Source: Streptomyces coryli (GTDB taxonomy: Bacteria > Actinomycetota > Actinomycetes > Streptomycetales > Streptomycetaceae). From it: 64,000 nt of DNA. The notes under the pieces are model-generated. The model was not told the DNA's origin, searched no databases, and was given only the letters and a program-made list of their open reading frames with translations. Positions 319 to 54,233 of the stretch are shown here, piece after piece. The stretch covers positions 1-64,000 of the forward strand of contig NZ_JAAKZV010000009.1 in assembly GCF_011044975.1 (NCBI RefSeq), given 5' to 3'. Within the stretch, counting starts at the first letter, position 1. Every line of letters begins with the position of its first letter. The position numbers and the translations under genes were made by a program.

Positions 319-1163
319 GCCCCCAACTCCTCGCGCAGCGCCGCCCGGGCGGGCTCCAGGTCCTCGTGGTACTTGACCACCGTCCCGAGCGTCGCCACCC
401 CCGAGTCAGTTTCGAGCGCCTCCGCGCCGAGCACCGCCAGCGCCTCCGCCCAGTCGATCGTCTCGGCCACCCCCGGCGGCTTGATCAGATCCGCCCCCCG
501 GATCCGCCGCACCGCCGCCGTCACCTGCCGCGCCAGCTGCTCCGATACGTCAGGGCGCCGACGCCGTACGATCGCCAGCTCGCGGGCGAAGTCCGGATGG
601 TCGAACCAGTGGTACAGGCACCGCCGCTTGAGCGCGTCGTGCACCTCCCGGGTCCGGTTGGAGGTCAGCACGACGGCCGGGGGAGCCACCGCCCGTACGG
701 TCCCGAGCTCCGGGATCGTGACCGTGTATTCGGAGAGCAGCTCCAGCAGGAACGCCTCGAACTCGTCGTCCGCCCGGTCGATTTCGTCGATCAGCAGCAC
801 CGCGGGGGAGGTGCGCAGCGCCCGCAGCAGCGGGCGGGTGACCAGGAAGCGCTCGTCGTAGAGGTCGGTGTCGTCGTGCCCGGCGCGCAGGTGCAGCAGC
901 TGGCGCGGGAAGTCCCAGTCGTACAGCGCCTGGGCGGCGTCGATGCCCTCGTAGCACTGCAGCCGGATCAGCGGCGCGTCGAGGGCCTCGGCCAGCGCGG
1001 TCGCGAGGGAGGTCTTGCCCGCGCCGGGCGCGCCCTCGCAGAAGATCGGCCGGTGCAGGGCGAGCGCGAGGTGGCAGGCCGTGGCCAGGCCGTCGTCGGC
1101 CAGATAGCCGGTGGCGGCGAGGCGGGCCCGCAGCTGCGCGGGCCCGCCCGTGGTGTCCGTCAT
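315..1163 (-). CDS. MoxR-family AAA+ ATPase (CoxD-like)
   Basis: A 282-residue AAA+ ATPase. The Walker A motif GAPGAGKTS lies near residue 45, Walker B LLIDEIDRAD near 125, and the sensor segment VVLTSNRTREVHDALKRR near 165. The length is typical of MoxR proteins, which act as chaperone-like ATPases with VWA partners. ATG at 1163 overlaps the coxM stop (ATGA), and the next gene overlaps this one by GTGA, so all cox genes are translationally coupled. In CO-dehydrogenase clusters CoxD helps build the Cu/Mo active site in form I enzymes; for form II clusters the maturation role is inference. Confidence 0.88.
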   Translation of the reverse strand: MTDTTGGPAQLRARLAATGYLADDGLATACHLALALHRPIFCEGAPGAGKTSLATALAEALDAPLIRLQCYEGIDAAQALYDWDFPRQLLHLRAGHDDTDLYDERFLVTRPLLRALRTSPAVLLIDEIDRADDEFEAFLLELLSEYTVTIPELGTVRAVAPPAVVLTSNRTREVHDALKRRCLYHWFDHPDFARELAIVRRRRPDVSEQLARQVTAAVRRIRGADLIKPPGVAETIDWAEALAVLGAEALETDSGVATLGTVVKYHEDLEPARAALREELGA

Positions 1164-2014
1164 GCTGTCCTTTCCGGTCCCGCCGCGGCCAGCACGGCGC
1201 GGCGGGTGAGCACCCTGGCCAGGTGCTCGCGGTATTCCGGCGTGGCGGAGGCGTCGGCCGACGGGCGGGTGCCTTCGGCCGCGTCCCGGGTCGCCTCCTC
1301 GACCGCGGGTCCGGTGGCGTCGGCACCCGCGAGCGCCTCCTCGGTGGCGCTCGCGCGCACCGGCGTGGGCGCCATGTTCGTCAGTCCGATACGGGCCTCC
1401 GCGATGCGGCCGTTGTCGCGCCGCACGGCGGCGGCCACGCCGACCACCGCCCAGGCCTGCGCCACCCGGTGGAACTTCTCGTAGTGATAGCCCCACCCGG
1501 TCAGCTTCGGCACCCGGATCTGGGTGAGCAGCTCATCCGGGGCCAGCGCCGACTGCAGGTAGTCGCGGAAGAACTCCGCCGCCCTGATGGTCCGTTCGGT
1601 GGTGACCAGCTCCGCGTCCAGGGCGAGCACCACCGCCGGCAGGTCCCCGGCCGGATCGGCGTGGGCCAGGGATCCGCCGAGGGTGCCGCGGTGCCGGACC
1701 GCCGGGTCGGCGACCGTCGCGGTGGCCGCGGCCAGCAGGCCCGCGTGCTCGCGGACCAGCGGGTCGCGCATGACGTCGTGGTGCGTGGTCATCGCGCCGA
1801 TGACGAGGCGGTCGCCGTCGTCCCGTACGCCGCGCAGCTCGTCGATCCGGCCGACGTCCACGACCAGGTCGGGGAAGGACAGCCGCATGCGCAGCATCGG
1901 CATCAGGGACTGGCCGCCAGCCAGCACCTTCGTCTCGTCGCCGCCCCGGGAGAGCAGCCGGACGGCCTCGCCGATGCTGTCCGGGCGGGCGTACTCGAAT
2001 GCCGCGGGGATCAT
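1160..2014 (-). CDS. coxM: FAD-binding medium subunit of CO-dehydrogenase-like enzyme (CoxM)
   Basis: This 284-residue subunit would carry FAD and pass electrons from the two [2Fe-2S] centres of CoxS to an acceptor. Family hallmarks are visible: MIPAAFEYARPDSIGEAVRLL at the N-terminus, the FAD pyrophosphate loop AGGQSLMPMLRMR (about residues 32-44), and the second flavin motif TLGGSLAHADPAGD (about 110-123). A CO_deh_flav_C domain fills the C-terminal part. The start overlaps the coxL stop by ATGA. The S-L-M gene order of this operon differs from the M-S-L order of form I CO dehydrogenases and agrees with form II. Confidence 0.92.
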   Translation of the reverse strand: MIPAAFEYARPDSIGEAVRLLSRGGDETKVLAGGQSLMPMLRMRLSFPDLVVDVGRIDELRGVRDDGDRLVIGAMTTHHDVMRDPLVREHAGLLAAATATVADPAVRHRGTLGGSLAHADPAGDLPAVVLALDAELVTTERTIRAAEFFRDYLQSALAPDELLTQIRVPKLTGWGYHYEKFHRVAQAWAVVGVAAAVRRDNGRIAEARIGLTNMAPTPVRASATEEALAGADATGPAVEEATRDAAEGTRPSADASATPEYREHLARVLTRRAVLAAAGPERTA

Positions 2015-4377
2015 CGGCTCGCCTCCTTGGCCTCCTGGATGGCCCGCCACACGCGCTCCGGCGTGCACGGCATCCTGATCTCCGTCACGCCGAGCGGACG
2101 CAGCGCGTCCACCACGGCGTTGACCACGGCCGGAGTCGACGCGATCGTCCCGGCCTCGCCGACGCCCTTCACCCCCATCGGGTTCGAGGTCGCCGGGGTC
2201 TCGGTCCTGTCGGTCACGAACTCCGGCAGGTCGGGGGCGCCCGGGACCAGGTAGTCGGCCAGGGTGCCCGAGGTCAGGTTGCCGTCCTCGTCGTAGACCG
2301 CCTCCTCGTACAGCGCCTGCGCGATGCCCTGGGCGAGGCCGCCGTGCACCTGGCCCTCGACGATGAGCGGGTTGACGACCTTGCCGATGTCGTCCACGCA
2401 CACGTACGAGCGGATCTTCACCGCGCCCGTCTCCGTGTCCACCTCGACCGCGCACAGATGGGTGCCGTGCGGGAACGAGAAGGTGTCCGGGTCGGTCACA
2501 TGCTCGGCCGACAGCGTCGGCTGCATGCCGTCGGGCAGGTGATGCGAGGTGAAGGCGGCGAACGCCACCTCCTGGATGGACTTCTGCGCCTCCGGCGAGC
2601 CCTGCACCGTGAAGGCGCCGTTGCTGAACTCCAGGTCGGCCTCGTTCGCCTCCATCAGATGCGCGGCCACCTGCCGCGCCTTGGCGACGACCTTCTGCGC
2701 GGCCTCGTACACGGCCGTCCCGCCGACCACCAGCGACCGCGAGCCGTACGTGTCCAGGCCGACCGGCGCCAGCTTCGTATCGCCGTGCAGCACTTCGACG
2801 TCCTCGAAGGGGATGCCGAGGACGTCCGCCGCGATCTGGCTCCAGGCGGTCGCGTGCCCCTGCCCGTGCGGACTGGTCCCGGTGATCACCTCGGCCTTGC
2901 CGGTCGGCAGCATCCGGATGCTCGCCGCCTCCCAGCCGCCGGCGCCGCTGCGCATGTCGCGCAGCCAGCGGCTCGGCGCGAGGCCGCACATCTCCGTATA
3001 CGTCGAGATGCCGATGCCGAGCCGGAAGATGTCGCCCTGCTCATTGCGCTTGGCGCGCTCGGCGACGAGCTCGTCGTAGCCGAAGAGGACCTGGGCGCGG
3101 TCGGTCGCGGCCTCGTAGTTGCCGCTGTCGTACGTCATGCCCGCGACCGTTGTGTACGGGAACTCCTCGTGCTTGATCCAGTTGTGGCGGCGCAACTCGA
3201 GCGGGTCCCGGCCGAGTTCGGCGGCCAGGTCGTCCATGATCCGCTCGATCGCGTACGTGGCCTCCGGGCGGCCCGCGCCGCGGTAGGCGTCGGTGGGTGT
3301 CTGCGTGGTGAAGACGCCCGTGCAGCGGAAGTCGTACGCGTCCATCTTGTAGATCGCCGGGAACATCGTGGCGCCCAGGATCGGGATCGACGGCGTCAGC
3401 AGCATCAGATACGCGCCCATGTCGGCCAGCAGGTCGGCCTTGAGGCCGAGCAGCGTGCCGTCGCGGGTGGCCGCGATCTCGATGTCCTGGATCTGGCCGC
3501 GCCCGTGGTGGGTGGCCAGGTTGCCCTCGGAGCGCGTCTCGGTCCACTTCACCGGGCGGCCGAGCCGCTTGGCGAGGATGAGCGCGAGCACCTCCTCGCC
3601 GTACACCTGCAGCTTGGAGCCGAAGCCGCCGCCGACGTCCGGGGCGATGACGCGCAGCTTGTGCTCGGGGATGCCGGTGGTCACGGCGAGCATGACGCGG
3701 AGGATGTGCGGGATCTGGGTGGCGGAGTACAGCGTGTACTCGCCGGCGGCGGCCACCGGCAGCACCACCACGGAGCGCGGTTCCATGGCGGAGGGGATGA
3801 GCCGCTGCTGGTGATAGCGGCGGTGCAGCACCACGTCGGCGCGGGCCTTCGCGGCTTCGTAGTCGCCGCAGGGCTGGTGGTAGCTGAAGCAGCGGTTGGT
3901 GTCCTTGTCGGCGTGCACGAGGGGGGAGTCGTCGGCGAGGGCGGCCTCGAGGTCGAGAACCGGGTCGAGCGGTGTGTAGTCGACCTCGATCGCCTCGAGG
4001 GCGTCCGCGGCCGCGTACGCGTCGCGGGCGACGACGACGGCGACCGGGTCGCCCGCGTAGCGGACCTCGTCCACGGCGACGGGCGGGTGGTCGGGCAGCA
4101 CGATGTCCTCGGTCACCGGCCAGGCGCAGGGCAGCGAGCCCTGCTCCGCGGCCAGGTCCGCACCGCTGAACGCGGCGATGACGCCGGGGCGTTCGCGGGC
4201 CGCGGCGACGTCCACGCGGTCGAGCCGGGCGTGCGCCATGGGGGAGCGGAGGATCGCGAGGTGGAGCAGCCCGGGGGCGGTGATGTTGTCGGTCCAGTTG
4301 GTCTGCCCGGTGATGAGCCGGGCGTCTTCCTTGCGGAGCCGGGCGCGGCCTATTTCGGGCTCTGAGGAGGTGGTCAT
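2011..4377 (-). CDS. coxL: Molybdenum-binding large subunit, form II CO-dehydrogenase-like (CoxL)
   Basis: A 788-residue catalytic subunit of the xanthine oxidase family (aldehyde oxidase/xanthine dehydrogenase a/b hammerhead domain, then molybdopterin-binding domains). The active-site loop reads AYRGAGR at residues 364-370. This is the form II signature; form I CO dehydrogenases carry AYxCSFR with the copper-ligating cysteine. The proton-abstracting glutamate lies in GVKGVGEAG (about residue 741), and the molybdopterin motif PDVGGGFGSK is at 247-255. Form II enzymes have been linked to CO oxidation but their true substrate is disputed, so a different aldehyde or heterocycle is possible. It overlaps coxS and coxM by 4 nt each. 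Confidence 0.93.
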   Translation of the reverse strand: MTTSSEPEIGRARLRKEDARLITGQTNWTDNITAPGLLHLAILRSPMAHARLDRVDVAAARERPGVIAAFSGADLAAEQGSLPCAWPVTEDIVLPDHPPVAVDEVRYAGDPVAVVVARDAYAAADALEAIEVDYTPLDPVLDLEAALADDSPLVHADKDTNRCFSYHQPCGDYEAAKARADVVLHRRYHQQRLIPSAMEPRSVVVLPVAAAGEYTLYSATQIPHILRVMLAVTTGIPEHKLRVIAPDVGGGFGSKLQVYGEEVLALILAKRLGRPVKWTETRSEGNLATHHGRGQIQDIEIAATRDGTLLGLKADLLADMGAYLMLLTPSIPILGATMFPAIYKMDAYDFRCTGVFTTQTPTDAYRGAGRPEATYAIERIMDDLAAELGRDPLELRRHNWIKHEEFPYTTVAGMTYDSGNYEAATDRAQVLFGYDELVAERAKRNEQGDIFRLGIGISTYTEMCGLAPSRWLRDMRSGAGGWEAASIRMLPTGKAEVITGTSPHGQGHATAWSQIAADVLGIPFEDVEVLHGDTKLAPVGLDTYGSRSLVVGGTAVYEAAQKVVAKARQVAAHLMEANEADLEFSNGAFTVQGSPEAQKSIQEVAFAAFTSHHLPDGMQPTLSAEHVTDPDTFSFPHGTHLCAVEVDTETGAVKIRSYVCVDDIGKVVNPLIVEGQVHGGLAQGIAQALYEEAVYDEDGNLTSGTLADYLVPGAPDLPEFVTDRTETPATSNPMGVKGVGEAGTIASTPAVVNAVVDALRPLGVTEIRMPCTPERVWRAIQEAKEASR

Positions 4378-4850
4378 GATGTCGCCTCCCGCTGCTCACC
4401 GGCGGCGGCGAGCACGGCCTTGACGATGTTCTGGTAGCCGGTGCAGCGGCAGAGGTTGCCCTCCAGGCCGTGGCGTACGTCCTCGGGGGTGGGGTGCGGA
4501 TTCTCCGCCAGCAGGTCGCGGGCGGCCATCAGCATGCCCGGGGTGCAGTAGCCGCACTGCAGGGCGTGCTGGTCGTGGAACGCCTTTTGCAGGGGGTGGA
4601 GTTCGCCGTTCTCCGCGAGCCCCTGAACGGTCGTCACCTCGCCGCCGTCGGCCTGCACGGCGAGTACGGAACAGCTCTTCACGGTGCTGCCGTCGAGATC
4701 GACGGTGCAGGCGCCGCAGTTGCCGGTGTCGCAGCCGACGGGGGTGCCGGTGCGGCCCAGATGGTCGCGCAGATAGTGGATGAGCAGGAGGCGCGGCTCT
4801 ACGTCGTCCTCGTAGCCGGTGCCGTCCACTTTCACCGAGATGCGGGTCAT
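4374..4850 (-). CDS. coxS: [2Fe-2S] small subunit of CO-dehydrogenase-like enzyme (CoxS)
   Basis: This 158-residue iron-sulfur subunit transfers electrons from the molybdenum site to FAD. Eight cluster cysteines are visible: C40, C45, C48 and C60 of the plant-ferredoxin-type N-terminal cluster ([12 protein letters not shown]), and C99, C102, C134 and C136 of the C-terminal cluster (QCGYCTPGM and LCRCTGYQ). ATG at 4850 is preceded by a strong AGGAGG Shine-Dalgarno, and longer upstream starts have no such site. It is the first gene of the five-gene minus-strand cox operon. Confidence 0.94.
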
Positions 4851-21256: not shown

Positions 21257-23737
21257 CTACGCGTACTCGACCTCCAGCCGCCGCGTCCCCGCCGGAGCCT
21301 GCACGTCATTGCCCGTCACCGGCAGCGGCCGTCCGTCCGCCCGCGCCGCGCGCACCTCGCCGAAGCGGCACGGGTACACGTACCGCACGTGCCGCGGCGC
21401 CGCCGTGACGTCGATCGTCACCTTCCGGGCGTCGGCGGCGTGCCGCAGCTCGTAGCCGAAGGGCGTGCCGAAGACGGTCGGCGCGGGGGAGACCGACACC
21501 GACTCGCCCTGCGGCACCCAGTGCGGGCGCACGCCCGGGGCCACGTACAGGTGCGGGTCCGCGTCCTCGTCGGCTTCGAAGAAGAGGGTGTCGCGGAGCA
21601 GCAGGATGTTCTCCGCCGCCGCCCAGCCGTGCGGCATGTCGCCCATGTACCAGGGGCGGGACGGGACTTCGCGGAAGTCCGAGGCGATCGGGTAGGCGTG
21701 CTGCTCGTTCCAGGCGCCGAGCGTCGCCTGCCAGCGGTCCGGCGCGCCGTCGGCGCGGCTGACCGTCGCGCTGCCCTCGGCCACGGTCCAGGCCAGCAGC
21801 CGGTCCGCCCGTTCCGTATCGCCGATCAGCAGTAGCGCGTGCGCCAACTGCTGCCCGAGATACGGCGCGTACGCGTTCCAGGCGGCGTTGTGGCGGAAGC
21901 CGCCGGTGACGAAGCGGGCCCAGATGGTGTCGAGGGTGTGGCGGAAGGCCGCGTCCAGGTCGTCGCCCAGCTTCGCGCCCATGTAGAGGCGGGTCGGGTG
22001 GAAGTACGCGAGGGCGCCGATCATCGTCGAGTCCAGCCGGCCGACGTCCGCCGGCCCGGTCGGGATGTATGTCTGCCACTCGCCGCGCCGCCGCTGCTCG
22101 CCCAGCACCCACCGGATCGACGCCGCCGTCGCCCGCTTCAGGTCGTCGAAGGCCGCCCACAGCTCCGCGGCGGCGCCACTCTCCCCGAGCCGCTCCGCCA
22201 GCCGCGCCGACTCGTACAGGCCGGCCAGCCCCCACAGGTCGTCCCAGTAGTGCGGCTTGTCGGCCTCGCCCAGGTGCTCGGCGCTCCAGCCGCTGTGCAG
22301 CAGGCCGAGCTCGTCGCGGTTGTCGCGCAGCCAGCGGGCGCCGTCGATGACGTACGGGGTGAACAGCCGCGCGCCGAAGGCGGCGGCCGGACCGCGCACC
22401 CGGTCGAAGCGGCCGATGGCCCACAGCGCCTCGCCGTTGCTGTCCCACTCGCGGTCGTTGCGCTCGTGGGAGCCGCCGTAGAAGCCGTACTCCGCGCACG
22501 GGCCGATCCGCCCGCGCCCGAGGTTGAAGGCGCCCGGGTGGTGCGTGCCCAGCTGCCGCTCGGCCAGGCCCGTGTCGCCGGCCAGCGCGCAGGCGGTGGC
22601 CTCCACCGAGGAGTCGCGGATCCAGAAGGAGTCGTAGACCGTCGGGCCCGGATGGATCTGCCCGTGGTCGGAGAGGATCAGCAGCTGGGCGCGGCTGGTC
22701 CGGAAGAGCTCCGGCAGGTGCGCCACCGGCGGCGGCAGCGTGAAGCGGGTGCCCTCGCCGCGCAGTTTGCCCTCCCAGAAGGCCCGGTTGGCGGCCTCCA
22801 GCTCATCGGCGGGCGTGCCGCGGAGCTCCGCCAGGTCGCCGCGGAAGTCGTCCACCGGCAGCCGCATGTCCAGCGTGAATTCCGGGCTCCGCCCGCCGAC
22901 CTTGTACGGCCACGCGAACACGGCCGTGCACAGCCCGGCCACCCGGTCCACCGCCTCCTCGGCGCCGCCGAGCTTGCCGCCGTTGGCCAGGTCGTGGAAG
23001 GGATTGCGGACCAGGTACGTCTCCGGGTCCATGCTGCCGTCCGGATTCCCGTACACCCCGGCGTAGGCGGGCGCGGTGTCGAAGCACGGGCCCATGCCCG
23101 TATTCGCCTCCACCCGCTGCTCCCCCGGCAGCCAGCGCAGGAAGATCAGCCGCCGGTCGGCGACCGTGTTCCCGGCCCGGTCGTGCCGCTGGAAGCCGCT
23201 CGGCCCCGCCGGCACCACCCCGGTGCACAGCCACCCCTCGTGCGCGCCGCCGTCGGCCGAGCGGACCGCGAGCCGGTCGAGCACCAGCGCCCGCTGCCGT
23301 GCGCCGACGGTGGTGCCGAGCGTGCGCCGTACTACCTCGACACCCGATGGCGAGCGATACGTGGTCACCACCACCGGCAGGTCGCCGTCCGCCAGCTCCT
23401 GCGTCACCTCGCCGCCCAGCTGCGGCAGCTGCAGCAGCCCGGCTCCCGGCTCGAAGAGGAAGTGCACCAGGGCGTACGTGTCGTAGACCGGCTCCACCTC
23501 GCCCGCCTGGCCGACGAGCACCTCCTGGCGGTGGTCCTTGACACCGGTCATGTGCCAGTAGCGGTACAGGGCGTTGGAGGCGAGCGCCGCCTCCTTGGAC
23601 TCGAAGAGCCCGCCGTCGAAGTCGTCGCTCCACCGCCGGAACGCCTGCTGCAGCCACCAGGGCACGGGATACGGATGCCGCCCCGCCCAGGTCCGCCACA
23701 TGACCTCGTAGAACATCCACTCATGGGTCTGCGCCAT
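21257..23737 (-). CDS. Cytoplasmic six-hairpin glycosidase-like protein
   Basis: An 826-residue protein with no signal peptide. An N-terminal beta-rich part (1-330) is followed by an (alpha/alpha)6-barrel-like region with TVYDSFWIRDSSVEATACAL, YFHPTRLYMGAKLG, GRWRH-like repeats and DMPHGWAAAENILLLRD, then a C-terminal beta-sandwich. This layout is that of GH15/GH94/GH95-type enzymes, but I cannot assign a family or substrate. ATG at 23737 was chosen because AGGAGGGGG lies 8 nt upstream; an in-frame start at 23764 lies before that site. It is divergent from the MFS transporter, which might export or import a related compound. Confidence 0.75.
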   Translation of the reverse strand: MAQTHEWMFYEVMWRTWAGRHPYPVPWWLQQAFRRWSDDFDGGLFESKEAALASNALYRYWHMTGVKDHRQEVLVGQAGEVEPVYDTYALVHFLFEPGAGLLQLPQLGGEVTQELADGDLPVVVTTYRSPSGVEVVRRTLGTTVGARQRALVLDRLAVRSADGGAHEGWLCTGVVPAGPSGFQRHDRAGNTVADRRLIFLRWLPGEQRVEANTGMGPCFDTAPAYAGVYGNPDGSMDPETYLVRNPFHDLANGGKLGGAEEAVDRVAGLCTAVFAWPYKVGGRSPEFTLDMRLPVDDFRGDLAELRGTPADELEAANRAFWEGKLRGEGTRFTLPPPVAHLPELFRTSRAQLLILSDHGQIHPGPTVYDSFWIRDSSVEATACALAGDTGLAERQLGTHHPGAFNLGRGRIGPCAEYGFYGGSHERNDREWDSNGEALWAIGRFDRVRGPAAAFGARLFTPYVIDGARWLRDNRDELGLLHSGWSAEHLGEADKPHYWDDLWGLAGLYESARLAERLGESGAAAELWAAFDDLKRATAASIRWVLGEQRRRGEWQTYIPTGPADVGRLDSTMIGALAYFHPTRLYMGAKLGDDLDAAFRHTLDTIWARFVTGGFRHNAAWNAYAPYLGQQLAHALLLIGDTERADRLLAWTVAEGSATVSRADGAPDRWQATLGAWNEQHAYPIASDFREVPSRPWYMGDMPHGWAAAENILLLRDTLFFEADEDADPHLYVAPGVRPHWVPQGESVSVSPAPTVFGTPFGYELRHAADARKVTIDVTAAPRHVRYVYPCRFGEVRAARADGRPLPVTGNDVQAPAGTRRLEVEYA

Positions 23738-25179: not shown

Positions 25180-26415
25180 GTGTCAGATGTGCAGAACGAG
25201 AAGCAGGCGCAGCCAACCCTGACCGAGGAGCGCCACGCCTCGTGGCTGGAACTCTTCTTCGACCTGATCGTCGTCGCGGGTACGGCGCAGCTGGCGCACG
25301 TACTGCACGGCGAGCCGTCCCTGGCGGACTTCGGGCTGTTCACCGTCATGTACGTCGCGTTCTGGACCATCTGGATGTGCTTCACGGTCTACGGCAACGT
25401 CGCCGGCGACCGGGCGCGCACCTGGACCATGCTGATCGGCATGCTCGGCATGGCCGTCCTGGCCGCGTCCGTGGCGGGGGTGCACGAGGGTGAGCATCTG
25501 CAGGTGTTCGCTGTCACCTACGTGGTGCTGCGCACCGTCGCGAACCGGGCCTGGCGGGGCCGCCGCGAGGTGCTCATGGACTGGCCCGTCGCGCAGTTCA
25601 CCGCGGGCGTGACGCCCTGGATCGTCTCGATCTGGGTGGACGGGCAGGCGCGCTACTGGCTCTGGGCCGCGGGCCTGGCCATCGACCTGTGGGCCACGCT
25701 CAGCATGTCGGCCCGCAGATTCCAGGAGAACCTTGACGCCCGCCGCGACTTGGCGAAGCAGCGAGCCGGGCGGCGCTCCCGCCGGGATGACGGCCGATTC
25801 GACTTCCACGTCACCCATCTCGACCCGGCCCACCTGGGCGAGCGGCTCGGCCTGTTCACCATCATCGTGCTCGGCGAGAGCGTCGCCCAGCTCGTCGCCG
25901 TCGGCTCCGGCGCCGGCTGGGACCACACGCTGCGAGCGCTGGCGCTCGCCGGCTTCCTGCTGCTCGTATCCATCTGGCAGCTGTCGCTCGTGCACGGCTA
26001 CGGCGGCGTGCCGAACCTGCGCGAGGCTGCGGTCGAGCCGCGCCTGGTGCTGCTCCTGCACTGCGTCACCAACGGCGCGCTGACCGCCCTCGCCGCCGGC
26101 CTCGGCGCGTCGATGGAGCACCGGCACGGCGAGCTGCCGGACAACATCCGCTGGGTGCTCTCCGCGAGCTTCGCCACCTACGTCGTCATCGCCACCGTCG
26201 CGGCCATGGCATCGCGGCACCTGGCGGCGGCGCCCGTCCGCTGGGGCGGCCTCGTCGTCCACCTGCTGCCGCCGCTGGCGCTGGCCCTCGCGATCGGCTT
26301 CTTCGGCGCCGCGCTGCCCGTGGTCGCGGTGGCGTGGCTGCTGGTCGCGGCGGCGGTCTGGGGTCTGCTCGGGTACGTGGAGTGGCTGCGCCCGCGCGGC
26401 GCGCAGCCCGCGTGA
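25180..26415 (+). CDS. Low-temperature-requirement protein A (LtrA) family membrane protein
   Basis: A 411-residue protein with about eleven membrane helices. The family signature WLELFFDLIVVAGTAQLAH is at about residues 21-39, and HLGERLGLFTIIVLGESVAQ in the middle. LtrA was named from a Listeria cold-growth mutant; its biochemical role is unknown. The start is GTG at 25180 (alternative GTG at 25189), since ATG codons in the neighbourhood are out of frame. It may be co-transcribed with the MFS gene. Confidence 0.85.
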   Translation: MSDVQNEKQAQPTLTEERHASWLELFFDLIVVAGTAQLAHVLHGEPSLADFGLFTVMYVAFWTIWMCFTVYGNVAGDRARTWTMLIGMLGMAVLAASVAGVHEGEHLQVFAVTYVVLRTVANRAWRGRREVLMDWPVAQFTAGVTPWIVSIWVDGQARYWLWAAGLAIDLWATLSMSARRFQENLDARRDLAKQRAGRRSRRDDGRFDFHVTHLDPAHLGERLGLFTIIVLGESVAQLVAVGSGAGWDHTLRALALAGFLLLVSIWQLSLVHGYGGVPNLREAAVEPRLVLLLHCVTNGALTALAAGLGASMEHRHGELPDNIRWVLSASFATYVVIATVAAMASRHLAAAPVRWGGLVVHLLPPLALALAIGFFGAALPVVAVAWLLVAAAVWGLLGYVEWLRPRGAQPA

Positions 26416-26493
26416 GGGCCGTCCGTACCGCCTCGAGGGCCGGTCGGTCCCTGCTGCCGCTCCGTGGCCGCCTGTATTCATAGGGTAGGGAAC

Positions 26494-26557: not shown

Positions 26558-26585
26558 TACGCTGTGCTTGTGAAAGTTTTCACGA
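26558..26585 (+). promoter_or_regulatory. Rex-type redox operator overlapping the adhE promoter
   Basis: TTGTGAAAGTTTTCACGA (26568-26585) is an 18 bp palindrome with one arm mismatch. It matches the Streptomyces Rex operator TGTGAAC-N3-TTCACA at all but two defined positions. Rex binds such sites when NADH is low relative to NAD+ and lets go when NADH rises, as under oxygen limitation. A -10-like TACGCT sits just upstream (26558-26563), so the transcription start would fall within the operator, the usual place for repression. The operator ends 17 nt before the adhE GTG start at 26603. Confidence 0.8.
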
Positions 26586-26602
26586 GCTGTGGAGGTGGCT
26601 CA

Positions 26603-29188
26603 GTGGTCACGGAAGCGGAAACCCAGGTCGGCGCCCTCGTCGAGGCCGCCGGCAAAGCCCTGCGGGACTTCGACGCGCTCGGCCAGGCCGAGGTCGACCG
26701 GATAGTCGGTGCGGCCTCGCTCGCCGCCCTCAGCGCGCACGGCGAGCTCGCCGAGCTGGCCGTCGAGGAGACCGGCCGCGGCCTCTTCGAGGACAAGGCC
26801 GTCAAGAACCTCTTCGCCTGCGAGCACGTCTCCAACTCGCTCCGCGGCCTGAAGACCGTCGGCGTCATCGCCCGCGACGAGCTCAGCGGCATTACGGAGA
26901 TAGCCGAGCCGGTCGGCGTCGTCGCCGCCCTCACCCCGGTCACCAACCCCACCTCGACGACGGTCTTCAAGGCGCTCATCGCCCTCAAGACCCGCAACCC
27001 CATCGTCTTCGCCTTCCACCCCTCCGCCCAGCGCGCCAGCGCCGAGGCCGCCCGTATCGTCCGCGACGCCGCGATCGAGGCCGGCGCCCCCGCGCACTGC
27101 GTGCAGTGGATCGAGCACCCGTCGGTCGAGGCGACCGGCGCGCTGATGAACCACGACGGCGTCGCCGTCATCCTCGCCACCGGCGGCAACGCGATGGTCA
27201 AGGCCGCCTACTCCTGCGGCAAGCCCGCCCTGGGCGTCGGCGCGGGCAACGTCCCCGCGTACATCACCAAGACCGCCAAGCTGGGCCGCGCCATCCACGA
27301 CGTCGTGCTCTCCAAGGCCTTCGACAACGGCATGATCTGCGCCTCCGAGCAGGCGGTCATCCTCGACACCGAGGTCTACGACCGCGGCATCGTCGAGATG
27401 GGCCGGCTGCAGACGTACTTCGTGACGGTGGAGGAGAAGCAGCTGCTGGAGGAGTACGTCTTCCCCGGCGGCAAGCTCAACGCCGCCGTCGTCGGCAAGC
27501 CCGCCCCCTGGATCGCCGAGCAGGCCGGCTTCACCGTCCCCGGCGACACCCTCGTCCTCGCCGCCCAGGTCGACTCGGTCGGGCCGCAGGAGCCGCTGAC
27601 CCGCGAGAAGCTCTCGCCAGTGCTGGCCGTGCTGGAGGCTTCCGACACCGAGCACGGCATGAAGCTCGCCGAGCAGATGGTGGAGTTCGACGGCCTCGGC
27701 CACTCCGCCGCGATCCACACCGAGGACGAGGAGCTGGCCGAGGAGTTCGGCAAGCGGGTCAAGGCGATCCGGGTCATCGTCAACGCGCCGAGCACCTTCG
27801 GCGGCATCGGCGATGTCTACAACGCCTTCCTCCCGTCGCTGACGCTGGGCTGCGGCTCGTACGGGCGCAACTCCGTCTCCAACAACGTCTCCGCGGTGAA
27901 CCTGCTGAACATCAAGCGGGTCGGTCGCCGGAACACCAACATGCAGTGGTTCAAGGTCCCGCCGCGGATCTACTTCGAGCAGGGCTCGCTGCGCTACCTC
28001 GGCGAGATGGAGGGCCTGCGCAAGGTCACTGTCGTCACCGACCGGACGATGGGCGAGCTGGGCGTGCTCCGTAAGGTCACCGACATCCTCGGCAGCCGTG
28101 CCGAGGCCGTCAGCCTCCAGATCATCGACGACGTGGAGCCCAACCCCGAGCTCGCCACCGTCGAGGCCGGCGCCGCCCGGATGCGGGACTTCGGGCCGGA
28201 CACGATCATCGCGCTCGGCGGCGGGTCGCCGCTGGACGCGGCGAAGGTGATGTGGCTGCTGTACGAGCACCCGGAGGTGGCGTTCGCGGACACGAAGGAG
28301 AAGTTCTTCGACATCCGCAAGCGGACCTACACCTTCCCGAAGCTGGGGGAAAAGGCGAAGCTGGTCGCGATCCCGACGACTTCAGGGACCGGCTCGGAAG
28401 TCACGCCGTTCGCGGTGATCTCCGACCCGATAGCCGCCCAGAAGTATCCGCTCGCCGACTACGCCCTCACCCCGGACGTCGCGATCGTCGACCCGGTGCT
28501 GACCAAGACGCTGCCGCCGCACGTCACCGCCGACTCCGGCTTCGACGCGCTGACCCACGCCACCGAGGCGTATCTCTCGGTCTACGCCAGCGACTACACC
28601 GACGGGCTGTGCCTGCAGGCCATCAAGCTGATCTTCGGGAATCTGGAGCGGTGCGTTCGCGACGGGGCCAACGACCCCGAGGCGCGCGAGAAGATGCACA
28701 ACGCCTCGACCGTCGCGGGCATGGCCTTCGCCAACTCGTTCCTCGGCCTCGTCCACGCCATGGCGCACACCCTCGGCAACACCTTCAAGGTCGCCCACGG
28801 CCGCACGAACGCCCTCCTCCTCCCGCACGTGATCCGCCACAACGGCACCGTCACGGGCAAGGCCACCCCCTGGCCGAAGGCCGAGACCTACCAGGCCGCC
28901 GAGCGGCTGCAGCAGATCGCCCAGGCGCTGGGCCTGCCCGCCGCGACGCCCGAGGAGGGCGTGGAGTCCTACGCCCGCGCCGTCGAGGAGCTGCGCGCCA
29001 AGTGCGGCATCCCGGCCTCCTTCGCCGAAGCCGGCGTCGACGAGCAGGAGTTCCTCGCTGCCCTTCCGCAGCAGATCCGTAACGCCTACGCCGACCAGTG
29101 CGCACCCGCCAACCCGCGGATGCCGATGCTCGGCGACATCGAAGCCCTCATGAAGCAGTCCTACTACGGCACCGAGAAAGGTGAGTGA
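26603..29188 (+). CDS. adhE: Bifunctional acetaldehyde-CoA/alcohol dehydrogenase
   Basis: An 861-residue fusion. The N-terminal aldehyde dehydrogenase half (1-440) reduces acetyl-CoA to acetaldehyde, with catalytic C246 in [11 protein letters not shown], the same position as in E. coli AdhE. The C-terminal iron-dependent alcohol dehydrogenase half (about 450-861) reduces acetaldehyde to ethanol and has the metal-site segments [26 protein letters not shown] and [13 protein letters not shown]. Each turnover to ethanol reoxidises two NADH. GTG at 26603 is set by GGAGG with 7 nt spacing; the in-frame GTG at 26564 would translate through the Rex operator. It overlaps or abuts pflB. Confidence 0.95.
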
Positions 29189-29195
29189 CCGAGAA

Positions 29196-31454
29196 ATGAC
29201 CGCCACCCCCGCAGAGAAGACGGCGACGCCGAATGCCTGGGACGGCTTCAAGGGCGGCCTGTGGCGCGACGCCGTGGACGTCCGCGACTTCATCCAGCAG
29301 AACTACACCCCGTACGAGGGCGACGCCGCCTTCCTCGCCGGGCCGACCATCCGCACCCAGGCGGTGTGGCAGCGGCTGATGGCGATGTTCCCGGTGGAGA
29401 ACGAGCGCGGCATCCACGACGTGGACGTGCACACCCCGTCCCGTATCGACGCCTTCGGCCCCGGCTACATCGACCCGGATCTCGACCTGATCGTCGGCCT
29501 GCAGACCGACGCCCCGCTGAAGCGCGCCATCATGCCCAACGGCGGCTGGCGGATGGTGGAGTCCTCGCTGCGCGACTACGGCTACGAGCCGGACCCGCAG
29601 GTCAAGGAGATCTACACCAAGCTCCGCAAGACCCACAACGACGGCACCTTCGACGCCTACACCCCCGAGATCCGCGCCTGCCGCAGCTCCGGCGTCATCA
29701 CCGGGCTGCCCGACGCGTACGGCCGCGGCCGCATCATCGGCGACTACCGCCGCGTCGCGCTCTACGGCGTGGACCGGCTGATCGAGGCCAAGGAGGCCGA
29801 GCGGGCCGCCGTCGGCGCGGAATGGCCCAGCGACGCCAACATCCGCGACCGCGAGGAGCTGGCGGAGCAGGTCAAGGCGCTCCGCGAGCTCAAGACCATG
29901 GCGGCTTCGTACGGCTACGACATCTCCGGGCCCGCCACCACCGGCCACGCGGCGATCCAGTGGACGTACTTCGCCTACCTGGCTGCGGTGAAGGAGCAGA
30001 ACGGCGCCGCGATGTCGCTGGGCCGCACCTCCACCTTCCTCGACATCTACCTGCAGCGGGACATCGAGCGCGGCGTGCTCACCGAGGAGCAGGCGCAGGA
30101 GCTGATCGACGACTTCGTGATCAAGCTGCGCATCGTCCGCTTCCTGCGCACCCACGACTTCAACCAGGGCTTCTCCGGCGACCCGACCTGGGTGACCGAG
30201 TCCATCGGCGGCGTCGGCGAGGACGGCCGCCCGCTGGTGACCCGCTCGTCCTTCCGCTTCCTGCAGACCCTGTACAACCTCGGCCCGGCGCCGGAGCCGA
30301 ACCTGACGGTCTTCTGGTCCGACCGACTGCCGCAGGGTTTCAAGGACTTCGCCTCCAAGGTCGCGATCGACACCTCGGCGATCCAGTTCGAGTCGGACGA
30401 ACTGATGCGGCCCAAGTACGGCGACGACACGGCCATCGCGTGCTGCGTCTCCCCGTCGGCGACCGGCAAGCAGATGCAGTTCTTCGGCGCCCGCGTCAAC
30501 GTCGCCAAGGCGCTGCTGTACGCGATCAACGGCGGCCGGGACGAGAAGACCGGCGAGCTCGTCGCCGAGGGCTTCGAGCCGATCACCGACGAGGTGCTCG
30601 ACTACGAGACCGTGGCCGCGCGCTACGACCAGCTGCTGGACTGGCTGGCCAAGACGTACGTGCACTCGATGAACGTCATCCACTACATGCACGACAAGTA
30701 CGCCTACGAGCGCATCGAGATGGCGCTGCACGACTACGCGCCCATGCGCACCATGGCCTTCGGCGCGGCAGGCCTGTCCGTCGCCGCCGACTCCCTCGCG
30801 GCGATCAAGTACGCCAAGGTGCGGCCGGTCCGCGACGAGTCCGGGCTCGCCGTCGACTTCGAGATCGAGGGCGACTACCCGGCGTACGGCAACAACGACG
30901 ACCGCGCCGACGAGCTGGCCGTGCGGATCGTGCACGACTTCATGGAGAAGCTGCGCAAGTACCCGACGTACCGCGACGCGGTGCACACGCAGTCGATCCT
31001 GACCATCACCTCGAACGTCGTCTACGGCAAGAAGACCGGCAACACCCCGGACGGCCGCCGCGCCGGCGAGCCGTTCGCGCCCGGCGCCAACCCGATGAAC
31101 GGCCGCGACGAGCACGGCTATATCGCCTCGGCCCTGTCGGTGGCCAAGCTGCCGTACGACGACGCCGAGGACGGCATCTCGCTGACGAACACGGTGACGC
31201 CCGACGCGCTGGGCCGCACGGAGGACGAGCGGATCCGCAACCTCTCCGGCGTGCTGGACGGCTACATGGCCAGCGGCGGCTTCCACATGAACGTCAACGT
31301 CCTCAACAAGGCGACCCTCGAGGACGCCATGGAGCACCCGGAGAACTATCCGCAGCTCACCATCCGGGTCTCCGGCTACGCGGTGAACTTCGTCCGGCTG
31401 ACGCGCGAGCAGCAGCTGGACGTGATCAACCGGACGTTCCACGGGGCGCTCTGA
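29196..31454 (+). CDS. pflB: Pyruvate formate-lyase (formate C-acetyltransferase)
   Basis: A 752-residue glycyl-radical enzyme that converts pyruvate and CoA to acetyl-CoA and formate. The catalytic cysteine pair is in [11 protein letters not shown] (C416-C417), and the radical-bearing glycine in [12 protein letters not shown] (G727). Both match E. coli PflB, and the length is almost equal. ATG at 29196 is used here; GTG at 29181 overlapping the adhE stop is an alternative that adds five residues. The radical form is destroyed by oxygen, so the enzyme can work only in anoxic cells. It is followed by its own activase in an overlapping frame. Confidence 0.95.
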
Positions 31455-32245
31455 TGGCCTTCGCCGCCGGCGCCGTCACCCCGGCCGGTGCGGCTCTCTA
31501 CCCGGAGAGCCGCCCGGTCACCGGGACCGTGCACTCCTGGGACCTGTCCACCGGCGTGGACGGGCCCGGCAGCCGGTTCGTGACGTTCCTGTCCGGCTGC
31601 CCGCTGCAGTGCCTGTACTGCCAGAACCCGGACACGATGCGGATGCGCAACGGCCGCCGGGTCACCGTGGACGAGGTCGTCGCCGAGGCCGCCAAGTACC
31701 GGCGGTTCATCCAGGCCGCGGGCGGCGGCGCCACCATCAGCGGCGGCGAGCCGCTGCTGCAGCCGGTCTTCGCCGGGGAGCTGTTCCACCGCTTCAAGCA
31801 CGAGCTCGGCTATCACACGGCGCTGGACACCTCCGGCTACCTCGGCGACCGCGCCACGGACGCCCTGCTGCGGGACGTGGACCTGGTGCTGCTCGACATC
31901 AAGTCGTGGGACCGGGCGACGTACCGGAAGGTCACCGGCCGGGAGCTGGAGCCGACGCTCGACTTCGCCCGCCGGCTGGCGGAATTGGAGAAGGAGGTGT
32001 GGGTGCGCTTCGTGCTCGTGCCGGGCCTCACCGACGACCCGGCGAACATCGAGCGCGTCGCCGCCTTCGCCGGCTCCCTCGGCAATGTCTCGCGGGTCGA
32101 CGTGCTGCCCTTCCACAAGCTCGGCGAGGCGAAGTGGGAGGCGTTGGGCAAGCCCTTCGCGCTGCACGACACCCCGGCGCCGACGCCGGAGCAGGTCGCG
32201 GAGGCAAAGGCGCTGTTCGCGGCGGAGGGCCTGACCGCCGTGTGA
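31454..32245 (+). CDS. pflA: Pyruvate formate-lyase-activating enzyme (radical SAM)
   Basis: A 263-residue radical SAM protein. The cluster motif CPLQCLYC gives C49, C53 and C56 (CxxxCxxC), followed by the GGE motif ISGGEPLLQP near residue 97. It abstracts a hydrogen from the glycine of PflB using S-adenosylmethionine. ATG at 31454 overlaps the pflB stop (TGATG), so the two are translationally coupled. An N-terminal extension of about 20 residues before the core is longer than in E. coli PflA. Confidence 0.95.
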   Translation: MAFAAGAVTPAGAALYPESRPVTGTVHSWDLSTGVDGPGSRFVTFLSGCPLQCLYCQNPDTMRMRNGRRVTVDEVVAEAAKYRRFIQAAGGGATISGGEPLLQPVFAGELFHRFKHELGYHTALDTSGYLGDRATDALLRDVDLVLLDIKSWDRATYRKVTGRELEPTLDFARRLAELEKEVWVRFVLVPGLTDDPANIERVAAFAGSLGNVSRVDVLPFHKLGEAKWEALGKPFALHDTPAPTPEQVAEAKALFAAEGLTAV

Positions 32246-52937: not shown

Positions 52938-54233
52938 ATGCGTACATCCGGAATCGACCGCCGCACCACCCTCAGACTCTTCGGCGCCGCGACGGCCGGC
53001 ATAGCCGGCGCGGGCGCGCTCGGCGCCTGCGCCCCCTCCGGCGGCAGCACCGACAGCGGCGGCGACGCCAAGGCCAAGAACTTCGGCTTCACCTCCTGGT
53101 CGCTCAACGAGGAGGCCACCAAGGCCGAGGTCAACAAGATCGTCAAGGGCTGGGAGTCCGGCCACAAGGCGAAGATCAAGACCACCGCGTACCCGTACAA
53201 CGAATATCTGCAGCAGCTCACCCTCAAGCTCAACGGCGGCGAGATCAGCGGCGCCGTGCACCTCGACATCGCCTGGCTCGCCGCCATCGCGCAGATGGGC
53301 AAGCTCGTCGACCTGGGCGACGTGGCCGGCGAGGGCGGCTATACGGACGTGGCGCTGACGAGCGGCCAGTACGAGAAGAAGCAGTACGGGCTGCCGTGGA
53401 CCACCGGCTCCATCGGCGTGATCGGCAACCAGAAGCTGCTCGACGAGGCGGGGATCAAGAAACACCCCGTGACGATCGCGGAGTTCGAGGACGCGCTGCG
53501 CGCCCTGAAGGAGCTCAAGGGCGTCACCCCGTACGCCGCCGCCACCAAGGTCGCGCAGCTCAAGGACATCTTCCCCTGGATGCAGACCTTCGGCTGCACG
53601 ATCCTCGACGGCGACAAGGTGACGATCGGCGACGACGCTTCCATCGACGCCGTCGAGTGGTACAAGAAGCTGCACGACGCCAAGCTCATCGCCAAGGACG
53701 TCGACCGCTTCGACGCCCGCGCGCTCTTCGGCCAGGGCACGGTCGGCTTCTACGACGACGCGGTCATCGGCAAGGGCGCGACCCTGGCCACCGCCAAGGA
53801 CAAGAACCTGGCGGACGCGATGGTGCCGGTGCCCCGGCCCGTACTGAAGAAGGGCGACGACCCGCAGGCCCTGCTGTGGGGCGGCGTGCTCGCGGTGGTC
53901 AAGGGCGAAGGCTCCGACTCGGCCGCGGACTTCGCGCTGCACGCCACCTCGGACGTGCCGACCGCGGTCAGCTACTTCGGCAAGACGGCGATGCCGCCCA
54001 CGACGGCGAAGGGCCTGGCCGACCCCAAGGTGGCCGCGGACACCTTCACTTCGGACTGGACCAAGAAGATCACCAAGACGGCGACGCCCGGCCCGTTCTG
54101 GGCGTACGCGAAGAACGCCCAGATCGAGGAGGCCGTCGCCAAGCAGGTCCAGGCGGTCCTGGTCGGCCAGTCGTCGGCGAGGGACGCGATGAAGCGGGCA
54201 CGGGACGAGGTGACGACGCTCATCAAGGAGTGA
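52938..54233 (+). CDS. Sugar ABC transporter substrate-binding lipoprotein
   Basis: A 431-residue extracellular binding protein. The N-terminus carries a twin-arginine-like motif (DRRTTLRLFG) and a lipobox GALGAC with lipidated C31. The two-lobed SBP_bac_1 fold follows, including QQLTLKLNGGEISGAVHLDI and LPWTTGSIGVIGNQKLLDEA. A ribosome-binding site AAGGAG precedes the ATG. The gene lies last in the IclR-permease-permease-SBP operon, which is unusual since the binding protein often comes first. A 17 bp tandem repeat spans its stop codon. Confidence 0.93.
   Translation: MRTSGIDRRTTLRLFGAATAGIAGAGALGACAPSGGSTDSGGDAKAKNFGFTSWSLNEEATKAEVNKIVKGWESGHKAKIKTTAYPYNEYLQQLTLKLNGGEISGAVHLDIAWLAAIAQMGKLVDLGDVAGEGGYTDVALTSGQYEKKQYGLPWTTGSIGVIGNQKLLDEAGIKKHPVTIAEFEDALRALKELKGVTPYAAATKVAQLKDIFPWMQTFGCTILDGDKVTIGDDASIDAVEWYKKLHDAKLIAKDVDRFDARALFGQGTVGFYDDAVIGKGATLATAKDKNLADAMVPVPRPVLKKGDDPQALLWGGVLAVVKGEGSDSAADFALHATSDVPTAVSYFGKTAMPPTTAKGLADPKVAADTFTSDWTKKITKTATPGPFWAYAKNAQIEEAVAKQVQAVLVGQSSARDAMKRARDEVTTLIKE

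Follow-up and report, generated by a model that had tools for sequence, protein, structure and literature searches.

A predicted Rex-repressed adhE-pflB-pflA fermentation operon in Streptomyces

Introduction

What would a complete set of fermentation genes do in Streptomyces, and which signal would open it? S. coelicolor reportedly survives anoxia, and Rex was first described in Streptomyces. Members of the genus are described as obligate aerobes (PMC5355995). Here we consider a 64 kb stretch of Streptomyces DNA (the window, that is, the whole stretch analysed), in which an initial annotation had noted a complete and intact adhE-pflB-pflA operon with an 18 bp palindrome matching the Rex operator over its promoter, and had taken this to be an oddity in the genus that would imply an anoxic survival metabolism, perhaps in mycelial pellets or spores. 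For the question of how Streptomyces rebalance NADH under anoxia, a Rex-controlled fermentation branch would provide an answer that can be tested in many species.

Results

The operon and its products

The three reading frames of the operon (Table 1) are all intact, and each product scores above the curated cut-off of its family model. AdhE reaches 1333 bits against NCBIfam NF010378 (cut-off 951), with both domains in one chain; PflB reaches 1154.7 bits against TIGR01255 (cut-off 994.2) in a whole-length match, and PflA 292.9 bits against TIGR02493 (cut-off 231.75). At the structural level, residues 7-858 of AdhE align with 6ahc, residues 9-749 of PflB with E. coli PFL (1h16), in which the key residues correspond, and residues 22-255 of PflA with 3c8f. 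The residues that we take to be catalytic are present in all three proteins: Cys246 within MICASEQ and the iron-ADH histidine motifs in AdhE, the adjacent Cys416-Cys417 and Gly727 within RVSGYA in PflB, and the CxxxCxxC cluster motif (C49-x3-C53-x2-C56) in PflA. The genes are tightly coupled, with a gap of 7 nt between the adhE stop and the pflB ATG, and the pflB TGA overlapping the pflA ATG. The annotation of a complete, intact and coupled set is thereby borne out, and the set is functional-looking as judged from its sequence.

The probable adhE start is the GTG at 26603, behind GGAGG, in place of the GTG at 26564 given by the mechanical list of open reading frames. The GC content is 69.4% in the operon and 72.2% in the whole window. 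Recoding of adhE by in-frame stops was considered and rejected: of 14 flagged genes that were checked, ten contain no such stop, and the stops in the other four, at query residue 857-858 of 861, are the normal gene end.

Table 1 Predicted features of the operon and its upstream region (window coordinates)
Feature	Position	Strand	Basis
Weaker OsdR/DevR-like box, AGGGCCGTCCGTACCG	26415..26430	+	PWM score 11.6, third best in the window; suggestive
OsdR/DevR-like box, AGGGCCGGTCGGTCCC	26436..26451	+	Matrix score 14.8, highest in the 64 kb window; suggestive
-10-like hexamer TACGCT just 5' of the operator (inferred)	26558..26563	+	Position match in three related promoters
Predicted Rex operator (ROP), TTGTGAAAGTTTTCACGA	26568..26585	+	One mismatch to TTGTGAANNNNTTCACAA; conserved in relatives
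Predicted adhE, bifunctional acetaldehyde-CoA/alcohol dehydrogenase, 861 aa	26603..29188	+	NF010378, Pfam, structure alignment, key residues
Predicted pflB, formate C-acetyltransferase (pyruvate formate-lyase), 752 aa, glycyl radical enzyme	29196..31454	+	TIGR01255, Pfam, structure alignment, key residues
Predicted pflA, PFL-activating radical SAM enzyme, 263 aa	31454..32245	+	TIGR02493, Pfam, structure alignment, key residues

A single Rex-type site in the window

The palindrome proposed as a Rex operator was confirmed as the sole site in the 64 kb window with at most three mismatches to the Rex consensus. In 40 first-order Markov sequences the background was 0.125 matches per 64 kb at exactly three mismatches and 0 at fewer. 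The consensus, TTGTGAANNNNTTCACAA, is that of S. avermitilis Rex, which bound probes with 1-2 mismatches better than 3-mismatch probes (PMC5355995).

The operator ends 17 nt ahead of the adhE GTG, and at the position equivalent to that of the -10-like hexamer, three related promoters have TACAGT, TACGCT and TATCGT. An alignment reveals that promoter core and operator are conserved between the window and these three promoters. The operator would overlie the presumed transcription start, which is itself a prediction. This location is unusually close to the gene: the operator starts at -35 to -37 from the start codon in the window and at the adhE genes of two related genomes (G010 and G029), and 119-252 nt upstream of the gene start at 48 individually listed perfect sites (25 at adhE, 23 at pflB).

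Distribution, lineages and neighbourhoods

Of 392 Streptomyces genomes, 138 contain PflB and 97 contain AdhE (E <= 1e-100, some matches being fragments), and comparison of the two lists by eye gave 95 genomes with both. Because the genes are widespread in Streptomyces, and because a putative PFL of S. lividans has been published (PMC6302529), their presence is less surprising than had been claimed. What does stand out is the arrangement: adhE lies directly 5' of pflB on one strand in only nine of the 392 genomes, as read by eye from gene positions (G010, G359, G394, G221, G333, G237, G103, G227 and G327), and the start-proximal operator is likewise less common.

In a tree of Streptomyces PflB (108 rows, quick LG+G4 search) the sequences form two separate groups, A, which contains the window, and B; the AdhE tree (44 rows) splits likewise. 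The nearest named relative among the best 80 matches listed is S. beijiangensis, whose PflB is 90% identical, and G010 has the same operon as the window (PflB 93%, AdhE 90%). Over 20 kb, adhE-pflB-pflA is common to G010 and the window in order and nothing else is, in a comparison of the right flank alone; the G010 contig begins 476 bp before adhE. A DcuS/DcuR-like pair and an isocitrate dehydrogenase gene, downstream in the window, were not counted as parts of the operon since they are not found beside it in G010. At the level searched, the LtrA-family and MFS genes upstream in the window are not beside adhE/pflB of G029 or pflB of S. beijiangensis. No close plasmid copy was found in PLSDB, where the nearest PflB is 72% identical and comes from Nonomuraea.

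In G029, a pflB gene of another sub-branch (L110) has a window-type promoter, with the operator 191 bp upstream, although on this contig it is separated by about 20 kb from the adhE of window type. This arrangement suggests promoter exchange or operon break-up.

As the distribution is patchy and the flanks differ between relatives, the operon may have been transferred recently, and its use would then be uncertain. Going further, it could have arrived by transfer and be silent or being lost in this strain. This would agree with its right flank, which shows no relation to the one found in the closest relative carrying this operon, and with patchy presence and fragmentary copies elsewhere (adhE in G174, pflB in G114). 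The three genes are nevertheless intact with their key residues, and their promoter core and operator have been kept in common with the three related promoters, so that we regard a silent module as very unlikely and retain a working, Rex-controlled operon as the preferred reading.

Conservation of the operator across Streptomyces

Operators were counted in the 300 bp upstream of distinct promoters at the loci in hand, which were grouped by how identical they are to the window; the adhE gene of L141, whose match begins late in the query, was excluded. In these related sequences, which are not independent samples, an operator with 0-1 mismatch is present in 26 of 32 group-A adhE promoters (22 perfect, window included) and in 20 of 31 A1 pflB promoters (18 perfect, the window counted as a miss). 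The six group-A adhE promoters without it are L082, L083, L135, L146, L147 and L148, and five of the 11 A1 pflB misses are the second gene of an adhE-pflB operon. In S. beijiangensis both the adhE (L082) and the pflB (L001) promoter are devoid of the operator. None of seven A2 pflB promoters has one; this miss is not general, as perfect sites stand at 11 pflB genes of 74-75% identity (G020, G062, G079, G082, G091, G180, G195, G216, G263, G283 and G324). No Rex operator was found in group-B promoters (adhE 0/7, pflB 0/15), nor, within three mismatches, in 149 control promoters.

Genome-wide, perfect operators number 76, spread over 58 of the 392 Streptomyces genomes, while the reversed pattern has no perfect match in the same set. 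Forty-nine of the 76 are upstream of adhE (26) or pflB (23); 75 sites were individually listed, and the remaining one, in G023, was fetched and stands at adhE. The other 27 comprise 14 at an LtrA-family gene, nine at cydA, three in a DoxX-like neighbourhood and one (L203) without an assigned target. Ten genomes chosen for their group-A genes contribute 17 perfect sites, all 17 among the 49. In the group-A carriers G082, G263 and G324 the third perfect site is the DoxX-type one.

At up to two mismatches, G010 and G029 contain ten sites each, the control giving one in each genome. These sites lie at rex, identified by its domain, at cydA, nuoA, wblE and ndh, named by eye from N-termini, and at adhE or pflB. 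The G010 list additionally has atpI, also named by eye from its N-terminus. A few sites are without an assigned target, among them two of the ten in G010 (C118 and C135). The window operator, with its one mismatch, is no better than the rex and cydA operators of G010. The Rex domain PF06971 is present in all seven relatives checked, from which a rex gene may be presumed in the window's own genome as well.

The operator includes TGTGAN6TCAC, which is a CRP-type core, and a regulator of the CRP/FNR family could in principle bind the palindrome in response to an input other than NADH. We therefore looked outside the core. In 45 group-A sites selected by TGTGAN6TCACR alone, related sequences rather than 45 independent cases, the outer T and the outer A are each kept in 45/45, the inner A in 44/45 and the inner T in 45/45, while the middle four bases vary. 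Because the Rex consensus is preserved at its flanking positions and the middle is varied, the operator is of Rex rather than CRP type. Genes known as Rex targets also have this pattern in the same genomes, as does cydA in others, which further argues against a CRP/FNR regulator, an explanation that we find most improbable. With the comparison across relatives, the Rex assignment is no longer just a motif match but a strong prediction, and Rex control of adhE-pflB-pflA is very likely.

OsdR/DevR-like boxes upstream of the operon

The DevR-like regulator of S. coelicolor, OsdR, has the consensus AGGGCCGATCGGCCCT (PMC5069765). The upstream box AGGGCCGGTCGGTCCC differs at one position from the listed S. 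coelicolor osdR box, and AGGGCCGTCCGTACCG sits 21 bp upstream of it. Scores were obtained with a matrix built here from 26 predicted sites, those of Table 1 of PMC5069765 only. The 49 other promoters scored in the window reach 7.8 or less, and in 149 control promoters the 90%, 95% and 99% quantiles are 6.7, 7.8 and 11.8, with a top score of 12.2. A first control set (251 promoters, 90% quantile 15.0) was dropped and replaced since it contained promoters near Osd-type loci.

Boxes above the control 95% line are found in 22/32 group-A adhE promoters (18 also with the Rex operator), 11/31 A1 pflB (8 also with the Rex operator), 2/7 A2 pflB, 15/15 group-B pflB and 6/7 group-B adhE promoters. Group B is a second Streptomyces lineage of pflB and adhE that has no Rex site and has OsdR-like boxes instead. 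The distance from a GGAC-type box to the operator is 93 bp in ten pflB promoters and 20 bp in eight adhE promoters.

It is possible, though on the whole rather unlikely, that sensing of O2 or NO by OsdKR (DevR/DosR-like) is the main switch, phosphorylated OsdR activating from the upstream boxes, and Rex a second gate. The window's best OsdR-type score, at 26436, the frequency of boxes in more distant relatives, and the membership of a putative PFL in the S. lividans OsdR regulon (PMC6302529) all fit such a scheme. However, no OsdR-like boxes were found at adhE of G010 and G029, where the Rex operator is kept, and the 16-mer is not enriched genome-wide, with 18 sites at up to one mismatch in six genomes compared with 26 for its reversed control; for these two reasons we treat the boxes as suggestive only. 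Moreover, the scoring matrix is our own and derives from a single table of predictions, and neither SCO0206 nor the word 'formate' occurs in the main text of PMC5069765. Rex remains our preferred main switch.

LtrA-family genes and other observations

In 14 Streptomyces genomes a perfect Rex operator lies in the promoter of an LtrA-family gene (L205, L206, L208, L209, L212, L218, L219, L221, L222, L223, L230, L233, L235 and L238), near the middle of each locus; PF06772 was tested for L205 and L222, and the others were assigned by similarity. At eight pflB loci (L003, L004, L006, L007, L068, L095, L106 and L109) an LtrA-family gene and pflB are divergent, the operator lying in the interval; L001 and L011 have the divergent pair without an operator. 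The LtrA-family membrane protein is predicted to be a new Rex target, and we name it as a candidate in redox physiology. The LtrA-family gene directly 5' of adhE in the window (25189-26415) is a distant paralogue, 25% identical to the Rex-linked type, and has no Rex operator nearby at up to three mismatches except the one of adhE downstream.

A perfect operator also precedes a gene for a small DoxX-like membrane protein in one conserved neighbourhood (L234, L236 and L237); the gene is whole in L234 and L236, and only pieces of it were found in L237. Elsewhere in the window, positions 1160-4850 (-) encode a three-subunit molybdenum hydroxylase cluster of the CO dehydrogenase/xanthine dehydrogenase type with an adjoining AAA ATPase, and 21257-23737 (-) a predicted protein of 826 aa that matches nothing in Pfam or NCBIfam at E <= 0.001. 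A tRNA-SeC called by ARAGORN at 53786-53879 (-), a possible hint of a selenocysteine formate dehydrogenase, was rejected as likely false because it overlaps a reading frame and no Rfam match reaches the gathering threshold in the window.

Discussion

In our reading, adhE-pflB-pflA is quite probably a fermentation operon that is complete in itself and repressed by Rex. As long as NADH is kept low by respiration, Rex would occupy 26568-26585, cover the presumed start and block the promoter. Once the electron acceptor is exhausted, NADH would rise, Rex would leave the operator, and adhE, pflB and pflA would be expressed together. PflA would then install the glycyl radical on PflB, PflB would convert pyruvate and CoA to formate and acetyl-CoA, and AdhE would use two NADH to reduce acetyl-CoA to ethanol, regenerating NAD+; as NADH falls, Rex would shut the operon again. 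The enzyme reactions and the NADH response are put forward by analogy with known families. We infer that the operon would be expressed at low oxygen and would serve maintenance or survival rather than growth.

The enzymes could also have another purpose, supplying formate for one-carbon units or acting in overflow under partial aeration, instead of anoxic survival. We consider this unlikely. It would suit a genus described as aerobic (PMC5355995); an NADH-responsive operator, for its part, suits electron disposal. Oxygen, moreover, destroys the PFL radical. Anoxic fermentation under Rex is accordingly the role that we favour.

More tentatively, and with less than even confidence, we suggest that a sizeable minority of Streptomyces can ferment facultatively, with NADH as the gate, and that operator strength orders the opening of their regulon. 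Respiratory genes, mostly with 1-2 mismatches, would open at a moderate rise of NADH, and adhE/pflB, which have most perfect Rex operators of the genus, only on failure of respiration; the LtrA-family membrane protein would take part in the same response, in some species through one operator common with pflB. That most perfect Rex operators of the genus stand at fermentation genes is the part likely to surprise the specialist. No paper on Rex control of Streptomyces adhE or pfl was found among the matches listed in the open-licence PMC literature.

Streptomyces PFL has already been connected with hypoxia: the putative PFL SLIV_36865 / SCO0206 belongs to the hypoxia-linked OsdR regulon of S. 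lividans, whose PflA is a putative pseudogene (PMC6302529). Like this regulon, the present operon places a Streptomyces PFL under an oxygen- or redox-linked regulator. Within the genus, group-B PflB forms a separate clade, with OsdR-like boxes and no Rex operator.

The Rex regulon of S. avermitilis has the operator consensus used here, with rex, cydA, nuoA, wblE, ndh and atpI as known targets, and adhE is mentioned once in the main text of that report, about S. aureus (PMC5355995). Relatives of the window similarly keep sites at rex, cydA, nuoA, wblE and ndh, and G010 at atpI. In contrast to S. avermitilis, whose genome has no perfect Rex motif according to the same source (PMC5355995), most perfect sites of the genus sample are on fermentation genes.

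A further close parallel is S. aureus, in which Rex represses adh1, adhE, ldh1 and pflBA, the same enzymes and regulator family as here (PMC5355995, PMC2883068), through the operator TTGTGAAW4TTCACAA (PMC5355995). What differs is the host, Streptomyces, the gathering of adhE, pflB and pflA in a single operon, and a predicted operator over the presumed start. The type of operon seen in the window is thus familiar, and it is the genus that is unexpected.
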